A stretch of DNA of 64,000 nt from Tubulanus polymorphus. Lineage: Eukaryota; Nemertea; Palaeonemertea; Tubulaniformes; Tubulanidae. Both the position numbers and the translations under genes were made by a program. Location: the NCBI RefSeq assembly GCF_964204645.1, contig NC_134031.1, positions 2,401,001-2,465,000 of the forward strand, written 5' to 3'. The notes beneath the pieces are model-generated. The model did not search any database, had not been told where the DNA came from, and saw nothing but the letters and a program-made list of their open reading frames with translations. Shown here in pieces: positions 3,001 through 62,573 of this stretch. The stretch's first letter is position 1. Every line of letters begins with the position of its first letter.

Positions 3001-6000
3001 TTCTCGACCTCTCGGCCGGCGCTCAGATTTAGTGACGCGTTGATCGTACACACACCACTCTGATACAGACGAGGGATGTTTACAGACAGCTAGATAACGA
3101 TGCGACTGACTCGAGACCTGGAGAGACGCGCTATTTATCGCAAAAAACATGGCGTAATTATCAATACGATTGATATGTCGACCGCGCTTTCATTCGCGAT
3201 CCATTATTTTTTCCTCATGTTTTGCTTGAATTTGAGTGTATTTATAATTACCATTCTTCAAATTTTCAGAGCCAGATAATGAAATTACCTCTTCGTATAA
3301 AGCGTTCTTAAGCCGCGATCAAACAAGCGTTTTTGGCCCGTACCAAATTTCGGAAAAAACTGTTCACACGGGTGCCAAATTGGCCCGTGCCTGTTTGGCC
3401 CGACCAAAAACGTCGGACCAGACCCGAGCTAAATGTTGGCACATGATTTGACCCGTTCTAACGAGGTAACGGCTAGATTCGACTCTGGCTTGATCCGGGC
3501 CAGGTCTCCGTGCGAGTTACTATTACAAAGTATGAGTGTCTAATAATACGAAGTCAGTCAAATTTCCAGTGGATCAATCAATCTTTGACGAGATATCGAA
3601 ATTCGTAGCAGTTTGTTTTTGTAATATTAACGCAATTTAAATATTTTGAAAAATATAGAAATAAACATATTCATGTATTGTGAAGAGCTTTGAGATTGTT
3701 TTTAATGATAAGGACTTTTTAGATAATTGATTATCATTATTATTATCATGATTTTTATCATCCAACATTCAAACACTTTCGATAATTTCTTCCTTGTTTT
3801 TATAATGGATTTTTTTCTAGAAGGCGTGAAAACAGCCACATAAATCTAGAATATACAAATGACAGCGCGTAAAACCGTGTTCATTGACATACATGAATCA
3901 CACGTCTCTTTTATGCATTATTTTTGATTTGGTCTGGTTGATGTGATGGACGAGACCGACTCTCGCAAAATGGGAATTTATTCAAATCGTGTCCAAACAG
4001 CATTACACGCGCCGTGTTCGTTCATTTGTCACAAAGCCGGGCGCCACATCAATATCGCGTTGTGTGGAATTGAACGTAACGGCAACATTTACACGGTCAA
4101 TAGTTCAGACAAAACGCAAATAAACAAAACCGTAAGTGTCATGCGAGATGACAATGTATGCATTCAGCAAAATCAATATCTATCATCAAAAAGCGTTTTT
4201 ATACAGGGATAGCTATAGCCGTTATTTAGAGCGTTTTGATTTAGGACGGACCAGGCGACCACACTAGTAAAAAGTCAGTTCTAGATTGATCCGTTCCATT
4301 TTAGAAACGGACTAAAATGACTGATTCCTGTCCTTTCTAATTTTCAGAACCGACCATTTCTATGATGTTTGAAAGAAACTTCGCCTGTGAGCAGCAGTAT
4401 TGAGTCTGGAGCAGTGATAATAGCTGACTTTAAAAAAGTGTATGAATGCGCAGCATTGATTTAGTCCGTTCAAATTTGGTCCGTTTCAGGTACGCGCAGA
4501 ATAAGAACGGTCCAACTATCGGTAGTCCGGTTTTTCGAAGTATTTGCGAATGCATTGATCGGAGACAGCAATCATAGTTGAAAACTTCGAGATTGTTTTT
4601 AGATCGGTCGAAATAAGTATGAAAACCACGACCAAAAAAGAATCAAAGCTAATGCTTTACGTTAATTTGAATCTATTTTTCCTTTCCCTACTTCCGTCAG
4701 AGATCGTTTTATTCTACCGATCTGGATTGAGACAAAAATTGAAAGCGCACGCGCATTAAGAGAACGGACGGAGCGAGCGTGGAATCGGATTCGTTTGATT
4801 TGAAACTAATTTCACTCCGTGGCGGCGGCGGTGGCAATCTTGTAATTCAACACACGATTGAGGAGTTTTTTCTTGATTAGTTTCCGCGGACGGGGAAGCG
4901 ACGCCGCGAAACCGGTAATCAAAGGCAGCTGTTTGAAATGAAATTTGCGTAAAATGATAGAGCAACATCCCTCTCTATTGGGTGACGTTGAACGGACTAT
5001 ATCGATCCTTATAAGGAAAGTATGCCTTCTAGCAGATTATTTAGGAGCTAATGCTATTAGTTCTTATCGAGCAAAATATCCAATTGAATAAAAAATGGCA
5101 TCCTAATACATTAGATCTGATAATTAATTGAATCAACGTAAAGATGCGTCCCGGGATGCTAGAAAATTATTAATCCAATCTACATGAAATTAGGGTGTTC
5201 GTCATTATCAAATGATAATCAAATCAAGATAATAAATTTGTATTACAACAGCCGTAGGGACGCGATGTCAGACGGGGCTAAGCTCATTTCGGTTCAATCT
5301 TATAGGTTAGCATGTCAGGGAAATAGTTTGTCGCAGACACCATCGTCTGGTATGACCGCATGTAAGCCCCACGAGACGATGACTTGTATCATTTCTGTTA
5401 TGCTATGATTTCTACGTTTCAGGAATTAGCTAACTCCCATAGGAGGAATACTCTGCACCTTTTCTTCGCAGACGCAATTCAGGACACGGATAATTTGTTC
5501 TTACGTCCCTTGCTGACAACCAGCCACGTGATAAAGGGCAAACGCCGCGTCGCGAACGAGTTGAAAACTTTTCTCTTCACCGTCTGGAACTGTAAAGGGA
5601 TCTAGCTCAGACGGCCGTACAATTATCGTTCACAAACCTCGGGCTCTACGCGGTAATAAAATCGCTCTACAAAGCTGATTATTTCGTCATCAAATACACG
5701 ACGACCATTTGCAACGAGCTCCTGGAACTTAGATAGTTTTTCCGAGCGAGCTATTACTTTGTCGTTAAATTGAATAATCCGGCTAGAAAACTATAGCAAC
5801 ACAGGAAATAAATTTCAATTAATCGCAAAATTAACTATAAACGTCCGTTGCACGAATCATCAATTCTAACAACTGGATAAATTGACTTTTATGTTTTGTT
5901 TAGGCATCGTACAATGGAGTACACCAGCGTACAAACGAAATGGAGCGCACCAGAGTTGTGTAATATATAAATTTGTCATTCAAAAATAGGAAACAAGCTA

Positions 6001-14231: not shown

Positions 14232-16820
14232 ATGATAATTGTGATGAATACGACCGTGGAGCCAGAGGAACCGTTTGGAATACCGACGTATTTCGCCATA
14301 CTCGTAATCGTATCGTGCGTGTTTTCCATTATCGGTGGTGCGGTAATAATGCTAAGCTACATGTGTTTACCGCAAATTCGAACCGCAGCCCGGCGTCTGG
14401 TCGTTTATCTCACTGTAGCCGATCTACTGACGGCTATCGGTAATCTGGTCGGAATGACGCGCTACGTCGTCTTATCGAACGAGGGACGAATCGGCTGCGG
14501 AAAAGTGGACGACCTTCGAGAAATCTGCGTCGTCCAAAGCGCGTTGACCACGTATTCCGCCATGTGTTCGCTTTTCTGGACGGTCGCCTTAGCCGTTTAT
14601 CTATACATGAATATCGCCTGCCGAGACGCGTGGAGAGCGAGAAGATCTGTATTATACTGTCATATCGTATCCTGGGGTATTCCAGGTATGCTAACAACAA
14701 TAGAACAATAAAGAAAAGAGAAAATGAAAAGGAAATGAGTTTGTGGGTGGCGATGATTAATCTATGCGACTATGTATTGTTTTGCGTTTTCTAGGTGTTA
14801 TCGTATTAACGGCAGCTATCGGCAATGTTCTCGGCGACGATCTATCAGAAACGACTGTTGGATGGTGCTGGATAAGCACTTGCTCTGGTACTAGACGCCG
14901 GCAAGTCGTTTGGATGCTCGGGACGGGCAAAGCATGGGAACCAGTGGCTGGTATACTGGCGATAGTATTCTTCGTGTTAGTGAAGTGCCATTCCCCGATG
15001 ACGGTAAGATTCTAGAGTCAGTTCGATAGATTTAGTCAAATCTACTTCATTCCTATGAGTGAAATTTCACAACTCGAAGAATAATCGATTATTTTGGCAA
15101 TTCAATGGGTTTCCTTGATTATAACAAATCAAGACACGATTCTAAAGTCGACATGGCACTATTGGAACACAATTATGCGAAGATATCTAAAATATCACAG
15201 CAATTCTACAACTCTCAGGAAAACTGCTCCATGGTGGAGTTGTGATCAAAATAAAATGTCCAAATGTCATGTTTAAGTTTTCTGTTTCGGACATGTGAAG
15301 CATTTTGGCTGTGAAGTGAAGCGTTATCTTCTTCTGGGGGCATAAGTCATATTCAAAAACTAAATTGTTTATTTTCAAATGGTTTCTGCCTCAACCGGGT
15401 AAATTTGTTTGTAGCCCGATCGTCGCTATACGATCCACTTGAATCGAGATGACGTTGGCGAAAACGCGGATGACGAGCCAGAGGATGGAGCGAACAAACA
15501 CCTGGCCATTATACCCATAGTTTTCATCGTATTAAGAATGTGGGGAACAATCCGCTTTTTTCTACACGTCACCGATGATAACCCGTTACCCCGGGCTACA
15601 GACGGCTTCCTACTCGTATTACAAGTAAGTCTCTGATCGCTAATCTCTCCCAGCTCAGACGAGATCCTTCGATCATTTCTTCATTCGATCGATGGATCAA
15701 TGACAACCGATGTTATTTCCTCTTATTTCAATTCGAATAATGGGAGACGATATATAAAAAAATCGAAAAGAAGATATCACTGGAAATTAGACTTCCAAAA
15801 TCTATATAATAATTCTTCGACCACGGCGTGAAATTGGATTACAATTCGAACCGACACGGGTCAATTGGCAGTTGATATGCTATATACGGGGCCGCCGTCA
15901 GCCTGTATCCGCTAATGGTTATTATAAAGGACTACGAGGAAATATTTTTTGAGAGAAGCCTCGACCAGGGAAGTGTGATGAGACTCATCACACTTCCCTG
16001 CCTCGACCGACTGACCATCGCCAACAGGGTTGTACGCAGAGTTTGGTTGTAGCACCGTCCGGTCACCTGGTGGACATGTCTGCCAACTGACACCTTGGAC
16101 TAGTGGTTGACTTGATTGATCGTTAAAACTCTTTTCGAAAGTCAAAATACAGCCATTCCAACGGCCATTTACTGCCAAAACTGATTTTGTCACATAACAG
16201 AGCAGGGCATTGTCAAGGTCTAATGTGTTGGCGGCCCGCGTATTACACGAGTTCACAAAAATTCCGTTAGGGGACCTTACAGCGCTGCAACCAAGCTTGC
16301 ATGATCTTAATGAAAATGCGGTTCAATGATTGGCTGACTTATCGATTTGTCGTACCCCGCGTAATTTAAAATGGCTTGATGCTGGATTTCCCATAATCGA
16401 ACAAGACTTCGGCTGGAGGCAACCAAGCATGGTAGAAGCAACGTCTTATATAATGCTTATCCTCAGATTACTTCCATTGTCTTTTTATTTTTGTAGGGTA
16501 TAGGAGATAGCGGCCAAGGATTTTGCAACTGTATTATTTTCTGTTTATCGTCGAGGAAACTGAATGAATATTTCTCAGATTGGTGTACGAATTGCTGGTG
16601 CGCGTGCAAACGATGTTGTCCTTCGATTTGCCGCGAATACAAAGACCTGGAACAGTTTCACAAGTTTATGTCGAGTAACCGCGGGTATGACCGGAGTCAG
16701 AGCTCCGACTATACGAGTCACCGATCGATGGTTGTGCCTACGTATCAGTACGGTACGATGCCGCCTATTACGGAACTTTCTTCTACTCCAGGCGATCCCT
16801 CGAGAAGACTATCGTTCTAA
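14232..16820 (+). CDS. GPR157: GPR157-like seven-transmembrane receptor
   Basis: Four coding exons join in frame: 14232-14685, 14795-15003, 15415-15624 and 16497-16820. All introns are GT-AG, with phases 1, 0 and 0. The product is 394 aa from the ATG at 14244, or 398 aa from 14232; human GPR157 is about 335 aa. Exon 1 encodes TM1 (FAILVIVSCVFSIIGG), TM2 (VVYLTVADLLTAIGNLVG), TM3 (CVVQSALTTYSAMCSLFW) and the start of TM4. Exon 2 completes TM4 and gives TM5 (AGILAIVFFVLVKC). Exon 3 gives TM6 (IIPIVFIVLRMWGTIRFF). Exons 3-4 join as LLVLQ/GIGDSGQGFCNCIIF for TM7. The TM2, TM6 (RMWGT-RF) and TM7 (G-G-S-QG--NCI-F) patterns match GPR157, an orphan receptor reported as Gq-coupled and ciliary in vertebrate neural progenitors. 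The tail of about 85 aa is Cys- then Ser-rich and longer than in mammals. Its 3' end converges on PSMC2. Confidence 0.92.
15959..16007. mobile_element. Tiny palindrome with 7-bp target duplication (copy 1)
   Basis: The 35-bp palindrome at 15966-16000 has perfect 17-bp arms, starting CAGGGAAGTGTGATGAG, around a single A. It is flanked flush by the direct repeat CCTCGAC at 15959-15965 and 16001-16007. The site lies in GPR157 intron 3. The arms match those at 62525-62566 at 16 of 17 positions. Confidence 0.8.
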
Positions 16821-17430: not shown

Positions 17431-22962
<5,532 letters not shown>

Positions 22963-29985: not shown

Positions 29986-30150
29986 GTACGTTCAACACTT
30001 ACATGTACATTCAACATGTCACATGTGCATTCAACATGTCACATGTACATTCAACACGTCAAATGCACATTCAACACGTCAAATGCACATTCAACATGTC
30101 AAATGTACATTTAACATGTCACATTTACGTTCAACACATCACATGCACAT
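29986..30150. repeat. 20-bp minisatellite, 8 units
   Basis: Eight tandem copies of a 20-bp unit such as TTCAACATGTCACATGTACA keep exact 20-bp periodicity with point differences. The 77-codon plus-strand frame across it is an artefact of the repeat. Confidence 0.95.
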
Positions 30151-60416: not shown

Positions 60417-60471
60417 GTCCAACCATGGATGTATAAACTATAAACTAGAGTTTATACATCCATGGTCCAAC
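60417..60471. mobile_element. Tiny palindrome with 7-bp target duplication (copy 3)
   Basis: The 41-bp palindrome at 60424-60464 has perfect 16-bp arms (CATGGATGTATAAACT) around a 9-nt loop. It is flanked flush by GTCCAAC at 60417-60423 and 60465-60471. The arm sequence is unrelated to the other tiny palindromes. Confidence 0.8.
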
Positions 60472-62517
60472 CATAGACTCTAAAACAGAAACGTATGGCC
60501 CACAACCATGGACTCTCAGTCCATGGCTCCCCGCACTAAAACCAGAGATAAACCTGGCCAAATACTCTGGAAAGCGTTAGATTTAATGAATCAATCTGAT
60601 TTACATTTTTACTTTTTAAATCTATACCCGGCCGGCCACCTATCTACCAAGATATTACTGTAAAATCATGATCAAGCTAACCATAACAGCCCTGGCAGAA
60701 ATATATAAACTGATTACAAATTTCATTGATTTATGAAATGACCCGACCGATCAAGAAAAACAAGGTATCATTTTTAGCCTTATAATAATGACTTAAGATT
60801 ATTCAAAAAATAAAATTACTAGCTTTTAATATCACATATCATGCAAGGTATTTCAAGGTTTTTATTCACCCAAAAAAATTTCCACTGCAACGGATTCATA
60901 CAATTTGAATCAATAGGAAAATAACGAAATTACACAAAGAATTGTAAACTTGGATCCATAAAACACCGACAATGGGGACCAGTCTGACTATTAATTTGAC
61001 ATTTCATGATGTCACCAGGCATAAGGACACTTGTCTATTTCATGAAATATGAAGCATTCTATCATATCAACTATTCAGCAAATTACAATGTAAGAGAAAG
61101 ATTTCCGTTTATACAAAAAACTACAAAACATATTTCCAACATATAAACATTAAAGCTGGACATAAAACCACAAATTCACTCAAATAATCCAGCTCTAATT
61201 TCATTTCATTAACATTATTTTTACAAGAAAACTGAAATTTTGCAAACTTTGCATTGTATTCTAGGAATTATCAGTTCTTCCTTAACTAATGGGTGAACTG
61301 TATTTGAAGAAAAAACAGTTCAACATAAAAGCATTAAAACCAGAGATAAAACCTAAAGATTCAACTCTGGAAAGCTTGAGATTAGCTAGTCAATCTTTAT
61401 TTTCATTTTCATTTAAATTATTCTACAAGATAACAAGAGTTTTACAAGATAGCTAGAGTTTTTCCAACTTTGCCTGAGATTTTCAAACATTATCAGTTCG
61501 CTCATTTAATACAACGTTATTGCAGGGAAAACATGACAATAATTTTACTATCGATAACTTATCACGTTTATAGCTGTTTAACATTCTTTCTAGAAAAGAG
61601 TTAAATGTATCTCCCAGATATTAGCCCTAAAACAATTAACAGTTACAGCAGTGACAGGGTGTGATACATAGGTAAATGGACGCGTGATCTTTCATCAGTT
61701 ATTTGAAGCATTCTATCAAAACAGATATTTTTTAGTGTGTTTGATTTAGTTAAGGTTTATGGTTATTTGTTTTGTTTATTACTGAGCCGATAGAATGCTT
61801 AAAACAACAACAGAAAGGATCTCAAGAGGTTGGGAAACACGGAGAAGGTTGTTCTATGAAAGAAGAACCTTTAATAATTAGATTAAGTTGATTAGAAAAA
61901 ATGCCTGATGATGAAGGCCTATAGAGTATATACTAATTGTTTGTTGGTTTTGTTTACTTTTATTACTTATAATTTAATTTGGTTTTTTTTTGTTATGTAT
62001 TTTTTTATTAATTGTTTTTTTTAAATGTATTTTTTTAAATTATGTTCTATGTATTTTGTACTATTTATTACAATTTACATCATCAGGAATTTTTTATCAG
62101 TGAAATTATGGGCTCACTTAAAAAAAGTGCTACAAAATCACCGCTGCACCTAAATAATTGTTTATTATAAAACACCACGATTAGTATGAAAGCCACTCAA
62201 CCTTATGATATGGATGACAATGAAAGAAGTCAAAACAGCTATAAACAAAATTAAAACGATCAAAATCATTGCAGGTCATTATTATCATTCCTTTATATCA
62301 TTTTACTCCTAGCTATACCTCTCTTATATATACCTCTGTGGATACAATGTACTTAGATATAAGTTTTCATATACCAAGCTATGATTATCTACATGGAAGC
62401 TCAATGCTAAAACTCTGTGAAAATCAATATATTAGACTCATTAGTCAAATCGCTTTTATGGGCCTTCAAAAAAATTAATGTCATCAAAAATACATCAACA
62501 GTTTGGTATACTTATTA

Positions 62518-62573
62518 TTTGTACCAGGGAAGTGTAATGAGTATTGAATCTCATTACACTTCCCTGTTTGTAC
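62518..62573. mobile_element. Tiny palindrome with 7-bp target duplication (copy 4)
   Basis: The 42-bp palindrome at 62525-62566 has perfect 17-bp arms (CAGGGAAGTGTAATGAG) around an 8-nt loop. It is flanked flush by TTTGTAC at 62518-62524 and 62567-62573. It belongs to the same arm family as 15966-16000. Confidence 0.85.

Follow-up and report, generated by a model that had tools for sequence, protein, structure and literature searches.

The window (the whole stretch of 64,000 nucleotides that was analysed, part of a 268-Mb assembly) contains 21 short inverted repeats with arms of at least 12 nt, and four of these are flanked flush by a perfect 7-bp direct repeat. All four palindromes and all four repeats of the preliminary description were recovered, with the duplication kept on both sides at each of the four loci. 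The family-1 palindrome at 15966..16000 (17+1+17) lies between two copies of the target site duplication CCTCGAC (15959..15965 and 16001..16007), and its arm is the outer 17 nt found at both ends of a 5.5-kb element, L045. The palindrome at 62525..62566, GTGTAATGAG (17+8+17), is flanked by TTTGTAC (62518..62524 and 62567..62573) and represents a close subtype of family 1, the A subtype, which is also seen among the family-1 palindromes listed genome-wide; the full elements examined exclude this subtype. The family-2 palindrome at 19860..19897 (18+2+18), bounded by ATTGAAC (19853..19859 and 19898..19904), has arms like the ends of the elements L127-L129. The family-3 palindrome at 60424..60464 has 16-nt arms around a 9-nt filler that repeats ATAAACT of its arm, and it is bounded by GTCCAAC (60417..60423 and 60465..60471). 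The four are not all unrelated hairpins, as those at 15966 and 62525 have one arm in common; the palindrome at 60424 lies within an interspersed repeat. Elsewhere in the window, a near-perfect hairpin with 25-bp arms and a 12-nt loop (22071-22132) has no flanking repeat and is perhaps an RNA hairpin or another element.

The palindromes were compared with shuffled sequence, as had been proposed, over 184 kb made up of the window and twelve 10-kb pieces picked by coordinate, with arms of at least 9, loops of at most 24 and low complexity removed. Six matches with a 7-bp repeat were found in the real sequence, namely the four window loci, one in L104, and one at window position 30014 among tandem repeats. 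Three shuffles of the same 184 kb, which preserve dinucleotides, gave no match at all for repeats of 5 to 10 bp. The real sequence also gave matches with repeats of other lengths (3 of 5 bp, 4 of 6 bp, and 3 each of 8, 9, and 10 bp), and these non-7-bp matches come mostly from a single local array in L113 read in several registers. At 6526-6543 of L104, an 18-bp near-palindrome, CATGGACACGAGTCCATG, lies between 7-bp repeats GTTAAAA and is perhaps the footprint of an L121-type element, whose ends begin CATGGACTC.

Genome-wide, the exact family-1 pattern CAGGGAAGTG-N0-30-CACTTCCCTG occurs at 151 places (reversed-pattern control 0), a count that includes copies with common flanks. Relatives of the 15966 palindrome were found at 36 further loci, all of which were examined, and 35 of them consist of two arms of CAGGGAAGTGTGATGAG, or a shorter or slightly altered form of it, around 0-21 nt of filler; a perfect 7-bp repeat is present in 30 of these 35. 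A larger, scripted set of 60 includes 48 loci with a perfect 7-mer (45 of them distinct) and 12 without one; L010 and L027, which have mismatched arms and a perfect 7-mer in both cases, were left out of the family-1 count. Junctions between the arms are diverse, with 30 distinct ones in 54 footprints, some recurring 2-7 times, and the filler is copied from the arm in L022 and L033. The palindromes L008 (3/7), L013 (2/7), and L081 (2/7) have hardly any flank match and are possibly joins between different sites. Eight unpaired family-1 17-mers were examined as well, of which five proved to be footprints and three (L057, L058, and L060) single ends. L005 was read by eye because a second family-1 element end comes directly after the right 7-mer of its footprint.

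The same arm sequence terminates resident elements. The 17-mer CAGGGAAGTGTGATGAG has 106 + 108 occurrences genome-wide (control 0), and at least 28 inverted pairs, footprints excluded, were recognised by eye among the 100 places listed, 20 of them spaced 2.1-2.2 kb apart. In the twelve family-1 elements examined (L043-L053 and L062), a perfect 7-bp duplication is present in 11 and a flush 8-bp duplication in L062. L045 is 5,511 bp long, with 33-bp terminal inverted repeats and a 7-bp duplication, and contains an unbroken 627-aa frame that matches PF21787, the P-type RNase H domain (E 2.1e-26). The sole PDB match of this frame at E up to 0.01 is the Drosophila P transposase, 6p5a (4.2e-8), where the better of two aligned stretches spans the VSD and D-x2-H blocks, whereas the stretch over the DEMK block is weak (7.7 bits). 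Internal deletion seems to have produced five family-1 copies of 2.13-2.22 kb, in which both ends are retained. In another five of the twelve elements (L048-L052), one end is full and the other matches for 17-20 nt only, a state that end joining after partial copying of the gap would produce. A count by eye of the stretch between C1 and C4:7.97 Mb gave 50 family-1 footprints and 16 inverted pairs in which both 17-mers are exact, the criterion for footprints being looser than that for pairs.

The flanks of the 60 family-1 footprints match at seven positions (0.90-0.97 each), compared with 0-0.58 at the four positions on either side, and the 48 perfect 7-bp matches among these true pairs compare with 25 in 19,653 random cross-pairs. 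The target consensus, once symmetrised, is GTYWRAC, and T is preferred at the position three bases beyond it (79/96). A box of seven matching positions is likewise present in the L125 family, described below, and in family 2, where it is accompanied by a match of 0.96 at one outside position, probably the favoured outer T meeting a constant element base. Perfect random cross-pairs number 371 of 19,305 in family 2 and 179 of 18,987 in the L125 family, and both values are raised by flank-sharing loci.

In addition to L045, elements with L125-family ends encode predicted P-type proteins. The genome contains 20 PF21787 matches, and one of these, the L125 locus, which was found via its transposase domain, proved to hold an element of 5,311 bp that has terminal repeats of 37 bp (CAGGGAGGTGGGAGTGAA...) and is flanked by a 7-bp duplication. 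If the palindromes are excision footprints, palindromes of the L125 end are to be expected, and 46 were found genome-wide (control 0). It is worth noting that this test is not wholly independent, because the L125 end CAGGGAGGTG resembles the family-1 end CAGGGAAGTG. The 46 palindromes have 27 distinct junctions, the commonest of which accounts for 17. We examined 20 loci of this family, namely every one of the 17 that have the commonest junction plus three more, and found a perfect 7-bp repeat at 16 of the 20. Five of the 17 have common flanks, which leaves the commonest junction at 13 unrelated sites. This junction is more uniform than expected of 1-nt microhomology, and a mobile 32-bp unit would give the same picture.

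The proteins themselves appear to differ in their N-terminal region from those with THAP, for which the L045 frame (searched to E 0.001) and the N-terminal stretches of L125 and L123 (searched to E 1) gave no match. A CxxC zinc module takes its place in L045 (~4741-4914), L125 (4549-4830), and L123 (4517-4960), all on the (-) strand; its zf-AD score is weak (24.7-27.4 bits against a cut-off of 28), and in L125 and L123 it also matches the RAG1 importin-binding region, weaker still (E 0.0014 and 0.0086). PF21788, the GTP-binding insertion domain, was matched only in L041 among the five frames scanned, and the L045 frame ends near the place where it is expected. A further open frame, which runs convergently to the transposase, was noted in L045 (1223-1792), L125 (855-1802), L123 (~1010-1952), L121 (777-1832), and L042 (454-1047), all on the (+) strand. 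These second frames share 21-48% identity over 50-320 aa between different P-type elements, those of L125 and L121 had no Pfam match over the cut-off, and they may represent a second gene of this P lineage. Terminal repeats were also sought at L041 and L042 (the first PF12017 loci) and at L123, where no limits were found, and at L124, where the single candidate is of low complexity; L121 has matching CATGGACTCTAAAAC ends and no matching duplication.

The family-2 pattern of the 19860 palindrome (CTACGAGCAA...) occurs at 217 places genome-wide (reversed-pattern control 0), again including copies with common flanks; among the 50 of these 217 that were listed, a group of six represents copies of one larger repeat, and L136 and L137 also have common flanks. 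The set analysed, 34 loci minus L091, L094, L097, L098, and L102 (no exact arms) and minus the flank-sharing copies L131-L135, contains 19 distinct junctions in 24 loci, with a perfect 7-bp repeat at 15 of the 24. One junction recurs at two unrelated sites (L138 and L139). Family-2 ends vary, and arm length in this family was judged against five versions of the end, including one that was partly guessed. Candidate parents were traced through L100, namely L127 (1,148 bp), L129 (1,163 bp), and L128 (5,605 bp), each of which has its own 7-bp duplication and ends that match the family-2 arms with 0-2 mismatches. A search of L127-L129 for a P transposase with frames from seven P-type loci gave no match, and two L128 frames scanned for domains had none over the cut-off. 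The anatomy of family 2 nevertheless suggests that it is of P type. The frames of L128 (C2:12824261-12829865) carry a VVVLADDMDVLL...GIGKKTAW pattern, which we take to recall PIN/FEN-like nucleases and not a recognised transposase. Three further loci were rejected as members of the class: L101 and L102 are not palindromes of this kind, and L146 (C1:20197217-20197387) has the family-2 core within a longer hairpin that reaches into both flanks, without a 7-bp repeat.

The interspersed repeat around the family-3 palindrome gave 172 first-look candidates, and in the 40 copies scored, the match over the palindrome and the flanking sequence is 95-100%. A query in which the 60424 flanks are joined by a single 7-mer returned two related, palindrome-free copies, L115 and L116; L116 reads through AACAGTCCAACCATAGACTCTAAAACA with a single 7-mer, and L115 does likewise in a diverged copy. 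These are paralogous sites, not orthologous ones, and since they have one 7-mer, the palindrome together with one 7-mer constitutes a clean addition or, less simply, a clean loss. Such a loss in L115 and L116 could have come about by recombination between the 7-mers. Family 3 is tied to no element, and its anatomy points to a footprint, probably also of P type. Directly adjoining the right GTCCAAC, at 60472..60488 (+), lies a sequence that by eye resembles the terminal repeat of L121, and it is possible that, within 60417-60488, the GTCCAAC target was used twice, leaving a footprint and then an L121-like end, a situation comparable to that at L005.

The length of the arms is limited. In the 54 distinct family-1 footprints of G type, which have 108 ends, the match with the element is always shorter than 20 nt, compared with a terminal repeat of 33 bp; L067, which copies L066, and five footprints of A type were left out of this count. 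With the limit set at 17, one more matching base that was unavailable from the other arm is present in 33 ends, and with the limit set at 18, in only 2. The proportion of ends matching past 17 (33 of 48, with 15 stopping there) is far above 1/4, with p about 2e-10 when loci are treated as independent. In the L125 family, where the terminal repeat is 37 bp, none of the 92 ends of all 46 palindromes extends past 18 and 27 stop exactly at 18, 17 of these 27 coming from one repeated junction; four flank-sharing loci were left out of one arm-length comparison for this family. From these limits we infer a donor cut ~18 nt inside the element end. The stagger of Drosophila P is 17 nt (PMC7776569), and the sum of stagger and duplication is thus 25 in both systems (18 + 7 here, 17 + 8 in Drosophila P).

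Overall, the arm limit of ~18 nt, the variable junctions, and the match with Drosophila P-excision products make it most likely that the palindromes are excision footprints of P-superfamily cut-and-paste transposons, a reading that we hold with a probability of about 0.92. What inserted was then most likely a transposon of kilobase scale, and the hairpin is the remnant after its departure. A P-type element would insert and duplicate 7 bp of target with a consensus near GTYWRAC. Its transposase would later excise it by cutting one strand at the element border and the other ~18 nt inside the terminal inverted repeat, so that a 3' tail with the element's outermost ~18 nt would remain on each flank. 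The two tails would be identical in sequence, and therefore joining them would give the duplication, an arm, a short filler, the reverse-complement arm, and the duplication again. The joining would proceed by microhomology end joining, occasionally with templated filler, and the repair is probably of the polymerase-theta type. The excision events themselves we infer; what was observed are the anatomy, copy numbers, junction diversity, arm limit, resident parents, and single-7-mer paralogues of 60424, together with the transposase homology of family 1 and the L125 family.

This bears on the earlier proposal that tiny hairpins were inserted through a staggered cut. A staggered cut remains the best explanation of the 7-bp duplications, but the hairpin as the inserted unit finds no support, given that its arms are the ends of resident 1.1-5.6-kb elements, that these arms are limited to ~18 nt, and that the junctions vary by locus. 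Of the identities then listed (transposase substrate, captured hairpin, or repair product), the repair product is the one that fits.

In a competing account, the palindromes themselves are mobile, as MITE-like units of 20-66 bp that consist of two inverted ends and are moved in trans, with a 7-bp staggered cut, by a transposase resident in the genome. The flush 7-bp duplications at unrelated sites agree with this, as do the recurrence of several family-1 junctions and the family-2 junction shared by L138 and L139, and its best argument is the L125-family junction that is found in 17 of 46 palindromes, at 13 sites with different flanks. A mobile unit, however, should conserve its interior, whereas distinct junctions number 30 in 54, 19 in 24, and 27 in 46 in family 1, family 2, and the L125 family, respectively. 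The arms are not only limited to ~18 nt but often shorter and unequal, and some of the identity between palindromes has another source, as the six identical family-2 palindromes are copies of one older repeat and the same applies to 5 of the 17 L125-family loci. P transposase, moreover, requires internal element sequence. Like MITEs, the palindromes combine terminal inverted repeats and target duplications without coding capacity; unlike them, they lack a conserved interior, measure 20-66 bp in the loci examined, and have arms cut at a fixed point in a longer terminal repeat. We reject a mobile mini-hairpin for most loci, as the junctions vary and several identical palindromes are copies of larger repeats, and grant it a small residual probability in view of the 13 unrelated sites that share one L125-family junction.

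The palindromes might also be footprints of another cut-and-paste superfamily, such as hAT, or of hairpin-forming transposases. Family 2, which has no matched P transposase, and family 3, which is tied to no element, would allow for this, and hAT terminal repeats can also begin CAGGG. Because the elements of family 1 and the L125 family encode predicted P-type proteins, however, we reject this explanation for those two families. In addition, hAT duplications are 8 bp, and hAT forms its hairpins on the flanks, so that the resulting palindromes consist of flank sequence and not of the element end. The target preference GTYWRAC resembles the GTANTAC of Galileo. We consider a non-P origin very improbable. 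Chance palindromes, or hairpins that arise when replication slips or switches template and that happen to have flanking repeats, deserve practically no weight, as the preliminary description had also judged for chance. Short inverted repeats do occur in the window, but the 184-kb shuffles were empty, the reversed controls gave 0 against 151, 217, and 46, and the flanks of family 1 have a match profile of seven positions.

Several known systems are comparable. Excision of the Drosophila P element yields products that retain the 8-bp duplication and up to 17 nt of each end, with AT/TA microhomologies or templated inserts, as well as products of partial synthesis combined with end joining (PMC2895639). 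The footprints described here are similar in having the duplication on both sides, outer inverted-repeat arms, microhomology joins, templated insertions, and signs of partial synthesis with end joining. By contrast, their duplications are 7 bp instead of 8 bp, up to 18 nt of the end is kept instead of 17 nt, and the end sequences are different; in addition, they form a standing record of hundreds of genomic loci, whereas the Drosophila P products come from a laboratory assay. Galileo, a member of the P superfamily in Drosophila, makes 7-bp and occasionally 8-bp duplications with the consensus GTANTAC (PMC4168063). The present elements share with Galileo the 7-bp duplications, the occasional 8-bp one (L062), and the preference for palindromic GT...AC targets. 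Galileo has long terminal repeats and THAP, whereas the terminal repeats are 33-37 bp here and the module is zf-AD-like, below the Pfam cut-off where tested. Zebrafish Pdre2/THAP9 has 13-bp terminal repeats, subterminal repeats, and 8-bp duplications, and larger flank deletions have been reported after THAP9 excision in Drosophila cells (PMC10983969); it resembles the present case in being of P type, in occurring outside Drosophila, and in that its donor sites are repaired imperfectly after excision.

On this reading, the genome adds a new and very numerous set of loci to a type of scar that is already known, and the geometry is a 7-bp/18-nt variant. Among the top-ranked open-licence PMC papers, none has a title that reports palindromic P-type excision scars recorded across a genome, which is weak evidence of absence. 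More tentatively, and at slightly less than even odds, this may be a P-superfamily lineage that cuts 18 nt into the donor end and 7 bp apart in the target, where the common sum of 25 reflects the same geometry with the border shifted by one base, and in which end-joined germline excision scars outnumber resident copies. If the footprint reading is true, the scars would constitute a natural archive of transposon excision and germline end joining, with one cut and one repair per locus, from which the cut position of the transposase, its target preference, and the repair habits of the host would be measurable from an assembly alone. For those who annotate genomes, it would mean that short palindromes with flush duplications can be scars instead of micro-transposons, and that the length of their arms may reveal the stagger of the transposase.
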